Shown here: positions 57,617 to 60,594 of the stretch, piece by piece
Layout of the letters: each line of letters starts with the position of its first letter
Numbering within the stretch: the first letter of the stretch is position 1
NCBI GenBank assembly: GCA_021555105.2
Contig: CP134604.1
Span: 1,860,001-1,924,000 of the forward strand
DNA: 64,000 bases
Direction of reading: 5' to 3'
Source of the DNA: Thalassospiraceae bacterium LMO-JJ14
GTDB lineage: Bacteria > Pseudomonadota > Alphaproteobacteria > Rhodospirillales > Casp-alpha2
Program-made: the position numbers and the translations under genes
Notes under the pieces: model-generated
Database searches by the model: none
What the model saw: the letters and a program-made list of their open reading frames with translations, nothing else
What the model was told of the DNA's origin: nothing

Positions 57617-58753
57617 TCAGGTCTTAGGCGGCTGAAAGACACCGATCGGCATGATGATCCATTCACCGCTTTCCTGCAGCATCGACAGGTTTGCCTGCTC
57701 AAGGGCGGTGATCAGTTGCTCCGCGCCACCAACGAAATGCACATTCACGCGGACCTGATCCTTGGACATCAGGACAATTTCGGATTCCCGGATGATGCCG
57801 ACACGCGATAACTGATCGCGGATGGTGAGCCAGTCTTTAAGGCCGGTGATCGGAATGGTGACAGCCAGAACCCCCGTGCCGGACTGGGAAATCAGATTCC
57901 GGCGTTTCCAGATGTTCTCGATTCGCTTCGCCGTTGCTTCCGTCACACGTGCCATCATGGCATCCGGTGTCTCGCCTTCGTTTTGGATATAACTGTCCGT
58001 GCGGTATTCCACTTCGATCGGATCGCTTGGGCGCAACAGTGTCACGGTCATCATCTGCCGGCCGCTTGCCGGATCGGCTGTTTGATTGTTATGGGCAACG
58101 ACTGTGTCGGCGGCGGCATATCGTTCGGCGATAACGCCGAGCCTGTTGGTGTCGCCTGCCATTGCCTCGCTGACGCCGACGGTGGAAATGTCCGAAAGAT
58201 CGCCGATCGGCACGATAAGAGGCACCAGTCCCTCGGGGCGGTCCCGGCCGCTCCATGCCTGACGCCAGGGATTCGGTTCGTCCCACAAAACGGCACTGGC
58301 ACCGATTTCGTAAACCGGAAGCACAACCATCGGCTTTGAAGGGGTTTCCGCGAACGGGACATTATAAGACCGCAGCAGACCGCGAATGGCATCGGGTTTG
58401 AAGCGGTAGTTCAGGCGCGCAATATATCGCACGCTCGACGCTTTTTCCCGCGCAACCGAGAAATCGCGAACATACGGTGCGATTTCGGCATTAGAGAATT
58501 CGGGAATGCGTTCTTCATCCTCGCTCAGGGTCATTCTCGAAACAAGCACGTAAAAAGCGCGCCGTTCCGCTTGCGCCAGAGCCTGCTTACGGGCTTCGGC
58601 AGCCGTCGCCGCCTTGACGTCGACGCCGACATTTTTCACCTCGAAGACATCGGCCCGGGCAAATTGGGCTGGCCAGGAGACCATGGCGGCGATAAACAGC
58701 GCTGCCAGCAGGCGGGGATACGGAGTGAAACGTTTTTCGGCTATGGGCGCCAT
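57617..58753 (-). CDS. DUF2066 exported protein
   Basis: 378 residues with an N-terminal signal sequence (RLLAALFIAAMVSWPAQFARA). DUF2066 begins VFEVKNVGVDVKAATAAEARKQALAQAERRAFYVLVSRMT and continues past VLPVYEIG. It is conserved in proteobacteria and commonly adjacent to purM and hda; function unknown. The C-terminal third looks like a tandem of small alpha/beta repeats (for example LKDWLTIRDQLSRVGII). First gene of the leftward operon. Confidence 0.8.
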   Translation of the reverse strand: MAPIAEKRFTPYPRLLAALFIAAMVSWPAQFARADVFEVKNVGVDVKAATAAEARKQALAQAERRAFYVLVSRMTLSEDEERIPEFSNAEIAPYVRDFSVAREKASSVRYIARLNYRFKPDAIRGLLRSYNVPFAETPSKPMVVLPVYEIGASAVLWDEPNPWRQAWSGRDRPEGLVPLIVPIGDLSDISTVGVSEAMAGDTNRLGVIAERYAAADTVVAHNNQTADPASGRQMMTVTLLRPSDPIEVEYRTDSYIQNEGETPDAMMARVTEATAKRIENIWKRRNLISQSGTGVLAVTIPITGLKDWLTIRDQLSRVGIIRESEIVLMSKDQVRVNVHFVGGAEQLITALEQANLSMLQESGEWIIMPIGVFQPPKT

Positions 58754-58802
58754 GAGTTCTTCTTTCTGCGCGAGGTGGCCGCTCTTACGCCCTGTTTAAG
58801 CC

Positions 58803-58831
58803 TTGTTGGCACAGGGGACGGCGCGTAATTT
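58803..58831 (+). promoter_or_regulatory. Promoter of purM-purN
   Basis: TTGTTG (58803-58808), 17 bases, TAATTT (58826-58831). It gives a leader of about 20 nt before the AUU codon of purM, just long enough for the AAGGAG ribosome-binding site at 58846-58851. Confidence 0.5.
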
Positions 58832-58858
58832 AGCATACTAACGCCAAGGAGAAAGACC

Positions 58859-59956
58859 ATTACCGAGCCGACTGAAAAAACCACGGATAAAGCCGCTTCC
58901 GCACTTAGCTACAAAGACGCTGGCGTCGATATCGAAGCCGGCAACGAGTTGGTGCGCCGGATCGGTCCGATTGCAGCGAAAACCATGCGTTCAGGTGTCG
59001 TTGCGGATTTGGGCGGTTTTGGGGCGTTGTTCGATGTTGCCAAGGCCGGATACAAGGATCCGGTGTTGGTTTCCGGTACGGATGGCGTCGGCACCAAGCT
59101 GATGCTGGCGATCGAAAGCGGTGTACACGGCAGCGTGGGTATCGATCTGGTTGCCATGTGCGCCAACGATCTGGTGGTGCAGGGCGCGGAACCGCTGTTT
59201 TTCCTGGATTACTTTGCCTCTGGGAAGCTCGACGTCGGGGTCGCGGAAAGTGTCATCACCGGCATTGCCGAAGGATGCAAGCAGGCAGGCGCTGCGCTGA
59301 TCGGCGGCGAAACGGCAGAAATGCCCGGTATGTACGATGACGGTCATTATGACCTTGCCGGATTCTGCGTCGGTGCCGTGGAACGGGCCGACGTGCTGCC
59401 CAGATCGGACATCGCCGTTGGCGACGTTATTCTCGGTATAACATCTAGTGGTGTGCACTCGAACGGTTATTCGCTTGTCCGCAAGGTCGTGGCGCGCGCA
59501 GGTCTGGCCTGGGACGCACCATCGCCGTTCGACGAAGCTAAAACCTTGGCCGAATCGTTTCTGACGCCGACACGCATGTATGTGAAGCCCTGCCTCTCGG
59601 CGATCAAGGCCGGCGGCGTCAAGGCGCTGGCGCATATCACCGGCGGTGGGCTTGTCGAAAACCTGCCGCGCGTTCTGCCGAAAGGTATGGGGGCGGATAT
59701 CGATGCCGCTGCATGGCAGGGCCTGGCGGTATTCTCGTGGCTAAAGAAAGCCGGAAATATCGACAGCGCCGAGATGTTCCGCGCCTTTAACGCCGGTATC
59801 GGCATGGTTGTCGTATGTGCACCGGAAGATGCCGGAAAGATTTCCGATACCCTTCGGGCCGCCGGAGAAACCGTGCAGATCATCGGTCAAATGACCGGGG
59901 CTGCCGGGGCTGATCCGGTTGTCATCAAAAACGGCGATGCGCTATGGCGCGGATGA
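58859..59956 (+). CDS. purM: Phosphoribosylformylglycinamidine cyclo-ligase, apparent AUU start
   Basis: AIR synthetase of purine synthesis, 365 residues if begun at ATT 58859. The conserved N terminus [16 protein letters not shown] (17-32) lies entirely upstream of the first ATG/GTG/TTG codon (TTG 58949), and an in-frame TAA at 58826 bars any earlier start. AAGGAG sits seven bases before the ATT, and the next codons read TEPTEK, resembling MTDK in E. coli. Later motifs: [37 protein letters not shown] is a rare but real initiator (infC, pcnB). A sequencing error for ATG cannot be ruled out. Overlaps purN by 13 bases. Confidence 0.93.
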
Positions 59957-60594
59957 AGATCGCCGTTCTCGTTTCCGGCCGGGGATCGAACATGCAGGCG
60001 ATCCTCGATGCCAGTGCCGATAATCAATTCCCGGCAGAAGTCGCCGTCGTGATCTCAAATATAGAAGGTGCCCCGGCGCTGGCCCGTGCCGAAGCTGCCG
60101 GGGTCAGGACGGCTACGGTCCGTCACAAGGACTTCCCCGATAGGGAAAGCTTTGACCGGCGCGTCAGCGAAGAAATCAAGTCCGCCGGATGTGAGCTGGT
60201 CGTTCTTGCCGGGTTCATGCGATTGCTCAGCGAAGAATTCTGTGAAACGTGGCGTGACCGGCTGATAAATATCCATCCGTCCCTGTTGCCGTCCTTTAAG
60301 GGCTTGGATGTGCATGCGCGGATGATCAACGCCGGGGTCAGGTTCGGCGGTTGCACGGTGCATTACGTCCGCCATGAAATGGACACGGGCCCGATTATCG
60401 TTCAGGCGGCAGTCCCCGTTCATCCGGGCGATGACGCCGATACACTGGCGGCCCGCATTCTTGAGCAGGAACACATCATCTATCCGCTTGCCGTCAGGTG
60501 GATTGCCGAGGGCAGGGTCCGGATCACGGGCGAGGTTGTTCGGGTTTCCGGCGCAAAGGCGCCGGATGGGGCGTTAATCAACTATCAGGACTGA
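59944..60594 (+). CDS. purN: Phosphoribosylglycinamide formyltransferase
   Basis: 216 residues. Transfers formyl from 10-formyl-THF to [17 protein letters not shown] at the N terminus; [16 protein letters not shown] carries the catalytic Asn-His pair; [17 protein letters not shown] is diagnostic, with the Asp. Start ATG 59944; ATG 59953 overlaps the purM stop as ATGA and is equally plausible. The last gene before a strong bidirectional terminator. Confidence 0.96.

Follow-up and report, generated by a model that had tools for sequence, protein, structure and literature searches.

In the 64,000-nt window of Thalassospiraceae bacterium LMO-JJ14 analysed here, purM presents an unusual question: at which codon does its translation begin? 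The identity of the gene is secure. When the frame is read from ATT 58859, TIGR00878 is matched over profile positions 1-330 of 332 with a score (Table 1) to be set against a cut-off of 236.35, and full-length purM occurs as a single copy in the genome. A mechanical ORF call begins at TTG 58949 and yields 335 aa. From there the TIGR00878 match starts only at profile position 17, and the first 16 positions are lost. In frame, the stretch that runs from the TAA at 58826 to the conserved SYKDAGVDI (beginning at 58907, with Y at 58910) offers no ATG, GTG or TTG. The earlier note had described a conserved PurM N terminus ahead of the first canonical codon, with AAGGAG seven bases before the ATT, and both were seen in our analysis. 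Its count of 30 residues lost by a caller restricted to ATG, GTG and TTG agrees with the mechanical ORF list. The in-frame TAA does bound the start as it had proposed, but not to a 30-codon stretch: TAA to TTG covers 40 codons, and 30 is the distance from ATT to TTG. Judged from the sequence comparisons below, translation of purM almost certainly starts at AUU 58859.

Table 1. Features of the purM locus in the window
Feature	Position	Strand	Remarks
Promoter-like TTGTTG-N17-TAATTT	58803..58831	+	Read by eye; putative function
In-frame TAA	58826..58828	+	Bounds the possible start region; kept in 5/5 genus members
Shine-Dalgarno AAGGAG	58846..58851	+	7 nt ahead of ATT; invariant in 5 genus members
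ATT (AUU), probable start codon of purM	58859..58861	+	Invariant in genus; AUU, AUA or AUC at the equivalent place across order and class
TTG	58949..58951	+	First canonical codon in frame; inside conserved domain; rejected as start
purM	58859..59956	+	365 aa from AUU; stop TGA 59954-59956; TIGR00878, 440.8 bits
purN	59944..60594	+	Overlaps purM stop; ATG 59944, or ATG 59953 in ATGA; TIGR00639, 238.5 bits

Leader and operon context

Rfam models, searched over 58400-59100 up to E 1, gave no hit in the leader to a riboswitch for purines or to any other known RNA, and no special mRNA fold was found at the purM start, where folds were slightly weaker than those of shuffled sequences (z +1.0 and +1.3). 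A consensus promoter scan made no call, the promoter-like sequence of Table 1 included. Members of the genus share the TAATTTAGCA block (58826-58835), and in other parts of the order related blocks of the form TA.CAC lie some 27 nt ahead of the start. Another block, TTGCAAAC...(A)GTATCTTC, recurs in many loci of the order (for example L023, L129, L145, L188 and L213), some 60-95 nt upstream of the gene. It resembles a promoter (TTGCAA, roughly 17 nt, TATCTT), and a second block in these loci is TA.CAC. In the window the former was not seen, and only the TA.CAC-type block TAATTTAGCA is present.

Downstream, purN followed purM directly in all 16 loci checked, which is a usual context of purM, though not a strictly defining one. 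The two genes are probably translationally coupled. The divergent neighbour (57617-58753, minus strand, 378 aa) had no NCBIfam family match up to E 0.001.

Conservation of the AUU, AUA and AUC starts

The start codon is conserved among close relatives. The earlier note had suggested this comparison, and in each of the four other readable genomes of the genus (G001, G002, G006 and G007) ATT occupies this position, inside the block AAGGAGAAAGACCATTAC, making 5/5 readable members with the present genome; the remaining genus members gave no purM match. Between positions -34 and +6 the leader is identical at 38-39 of 40 sites among G000, G001 and G002, whose PurM proteins are 80-81% identical while their fourfold sites are only 42-48% identical. 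The distance from ATT to Y ranges from 14 to 17 codons in the genus. The N-terminal tail thus varies in length by whole codons, indicating that the frame is kept from ATT onward.

In the order, our survey took in some 100 purM genes, usually a single gene per genus, though some genera were sampled more deeply. For the class, 60 genes were taken, at close to one per family. An arrangement recurs in most families of the order and in some others in the class: GAGG or GGAG, 5-9 nt, AUU (more rarely AUA or AUC), and then 5-18 codons to YKDAG, the residue after the start usually being Ser, Thr, Asn or Pro. Examples within the order are families f1, f6, f9, f11, f15, f19, f20 and f23. Outside it, AUU was found in f112, f113, f123 and f128, AUA in f67, f107, f114 and f146, and AUC in f40, f85, f96, f98 and f138. 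Among named organisms, Kiloniella majae and Rhodovibrio have AUA and Azospirillum brasilense has AUC. ATG is used at purM in f17, f29, parts of f1 and f19, Sphingomonas, Rhodobacteraceae and Sinorhizobium, and also in Rhizobiales-like relatives. With so many relatives carrying ATG, the non-AUG start must be dispensable and has been repeatedly lost or gained. In a single-gene FastTree phylogeny AUG and non-AUG starts are scattered, with at least 28 changes of state, a count in which gains and losses are not distinguishable. In three loci, L187 and L226 (f6) and L027 (f14), the sequence reads ATGGAGGAAGCCATT, with an in-frame ATG directly before the Shine-Dalgarno sequence (SD) and four codons ahead of AUU. 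Two starts compete there, and the sister genomes L188 and L189 carry AGG instead of that ATG.

The pattern is far from chance. In a strict set of 146 loci with a visible upstream stop, canonical codons were sought from the stop (or from 45 codons upstream) to YKDAG, and 53 loci (18 families, 33 genera) had no ATG, GTG or TTG at all. In 47 of these 53 an SD core precedes an Ile codon in frame (AUU 44, AUC 2, AUA 1), an arrangement that the other six lack; counted once per genus, the figures were AUU 23, AUC 3, AUA 1 and none 6. AUU with an SD occurred 44 times in frame and never at +1 or +2 in the strict set, and across all 170 purM loci in 85 loci in frame against 2 and 0 in the other frames; the sequences are related and these counts are not independent events, yet the contrasts of frame and codon remain very large. 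Furthermore, 97 automatically labelled starts (about 29 families) comprised 78 AUU, 10 AUA and 9 AUC, whereas internal Ile codons of the same genes were mostly ATC (1131 of 1430, with 262 ATT and 37 ATA). From that usage about 18 AUU starts in 97 would be expected, and the maximum in 20000 simulated draws was 34. A few automatic labels are wrong (L128 has ATT, not ATC, and L280 may be AUA), and the stricter count of 53 loci is preferred for this reason. In the strict set the SD stayed within 5-9 nt of the codon, but anything from 5 to 18 codons separated that codon from YKDAG; a start would behave in this way, a coding residue would not. These comparisons strongly support AUU initiation of purM as the earlier note had proposed it, and they indicate that the AUU start is an old, selected trait of alphaproteobacterial purM, not an accident of a single strain.

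Other readings of the start, and comparison genes

The non-AUG start was compared with those of other genes. In nearly all genomes of the order with a readable infC, this gene starts behind an SD at AUA (the majority) or at AUC (a few); in the present genome the start is AUA, in ...AGGAGATATTTCC-ATA. These infC loci (L162 and others in L146-L175) thus have AUA or AUC, unlike the AUU of E. coli. By contrast, purF and purH start at ATG, and purL probably at TTG. The purL of this genome (L302) has an apparent TTG start behind GGGACAGGA, with no ATG in frame upstream of the conserved N terminus. Among the five genes read (infC, purM, purF, purH and purL), AUN starts occurred only in purM and in infC, which is known to be controlled by IF3. 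An AUU start as a trait of the whole purine pathway was rejected on the starts of purF, purH and purL, and AUN starts do not control the pathway in its entirety.

Several other readings of the start were weighed. TTG 58949 is the first canonical codon, and if it were the true start the frame upstream would be open by chance. However, its position is CTG in G001 and G002, the upstream SYKDAGVDI is conserved both among the genus members and in solved PurM structures, which align to the query from residues 10-13, ahead of the SYKDAG motif, and the truncated reading forfeits the first part of the purM profile. We consider it extremely improbable. Still less credible is an ATG misread through sequencing or assembly error. 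ATT and ATG do differ by a single base, and the earlier note had allowed for an error or a mutation of ATG, but the same kind of non-AUG codon stands in the five genus genomes and in dozens of other genera, with non-AUG starts in some 29 families. The ATT block in the genus relatives and the replacement of TTG by CTG exclude error and the TTG start, and a recent mutation of ATG is excluded as well.

A start further upstream at another odd codon, such as ACG 58841, would make the ATT an ordinary Ile codon, and the frame is indeed open back to 58829. However, ACG 58841 has no SD, and a message from the guessed promoter would probably begin close to it. An ordinary Ile here would mostly be ATC, as the body codons show, yet the codon is ATT; in f6 a stop lies only five codons before ATT (*SREEA-I), with the SD itself filling them. 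This reading is very unlikely. A special initiator tRNA or an altered code could make AUU a normal start, and the presence of AUN starts in both infC and purM of this genome fits such a view. It is opposed by the ATG of purF and purH and by the non-AUG infC of distant bacteria, and we give it hardly any credence. AUU 58859 is retained as the start in what follows.

IF3 and the possible role of the start codon

The AUU of infC in E. coli is repressed by IF3, which also restricts non-canonical starts in other cases (PMC5472188, PMC9410913, PMC13009471). The class that IF3 rejects consists of codons other than ATG, GTG and TTG (PMC5472188), and the AUU of purM falls into it. Initiator fMet-tRNA would pair with AUU despite the mismatch at the third position, aided by the strong SD, and PurM would begin with Met. 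AUU, AUA and AUC being rejected by IF3, initiation at purM is expected to be inefficient and to depend on the discrimination stringency of the 30S-IF3 complex. The output of PurM would then track the balance of ribosomes, IF3 and fMet-tRNA. Such a translational throttle on the purM-purN operon, in which PurN would be throttled too through coupling, appears the most likely role, since AUU, AUA and AUC all belong to the class rejected by IF3. It is probable that the weakness of the AUU start is itself under selection, and there is a slightly better than even case that discrimination by IF3 serves as a regulatory handle on purM. As a whole, an AUU-started purM that is kept weak and sensitive to IF3, with a strong SD in compensation, is in all likelihood the best explanation of the data.

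The AUU could instead represent a fixed expression setting that does no more than bring PurM down to the proper level, as for pcnB, with no regulation by the level of IF3. The pcnB gene has been described as translationally limited by its AUU (Binns and Masters 2002, as cited in PMC9410913), and the existence of AUG lineages implies that regulation is not essential. On the other hand, a weak SD with AUG could give a low level as well, yet purM combines a strong SD with a codon that stays in the IF3-rejected class across many families; this argument is not decisive. We regard a fixed setting as a real but less than even possibility. The link to IF3 stringency that the earlier note had suggested is plausible and gains strength from the non-AUG starts of infC in these genomes.

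Known non-canonical starts offer parallels. The infC gene has AUU in E. coli, AUC in Streptomyces and AUA in S. aureus, and like purM it keeps an AUU-class start over wide taxa. However, infC encodes the discriminating factor and is autoregulated, whereas purM encodes a purine enzyme and would be at most a target. In E. coli only infC and pcnB start with AUU (PMC9410913). pcnB resembles purM in that its product is no translation factor, but it encodes another protein in another bacterial group. In Streptomyces, sigR resembles purM in heading a coupled two-gene operon with a non-canonical start; its start is GTC and not AUN, and repression by IF3 was demonstrated experimentally for sigR (PMC5472188), while for purM it is our inference. 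In S. aureus, ccpN (AUA) and cvfC1 (AUU) have conserved starts, strong SDs and reduced translation, which is medium-dependent for ccpN (PMC13009471). They share with purM a conserved AUN start and a strong SD, and ccpN bears on metabolism. They differ in belonging to Firmicutes and in encoding a regulator and a small protein, the conservation of cvfC1 being described among Staphylococci (PMC13009471). With infC, pcnB, sigR and ccpN, purM joins the genes known for AUN or other non-canonical starts, and its conservation is unusually deep.

More tentatively, and with the balance leaning slightly against it, the purM-purN output across much of the Alphaproteobacteria may be coupled to the initiation machinery and its state (the IF3:30S ratio) by way of the AUU, AUA or AUC start. 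Formylation of fMet-tRNA might also be sensed, as it draws on the same 10-formyl-tetrahydrofolate as PurN. If so, purine synthesis would follow translation capacity, and purM would be a second, metabolic target of the discrimination that controls infC. In the open-licence literature we found no earlier report of AUU, IF3 or an alternative start for purM, or of ATT/AUU starts in Alphaproteobacteria, although such reports may exist. AUU starts have been proven in very few genes (two in E. coli), and a core biosynthetic enzyme with AUU, AUA or AUC over many families would make the rejected codons a stable regulatory device beyond translation genes. The N termini of purM products are likely wrong wherever only ATG, GTG and TTG are allowed. 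The idea of metabolic regulation by IF3 stringency is now directly testable, for example in A. brasilense with its AUC start. Within f1, genera switch between AUU (L008, L012, L041 and others) and ATG (L014, L026, L032, L042) at purM, and they form natural pairs for the effect of the codon.
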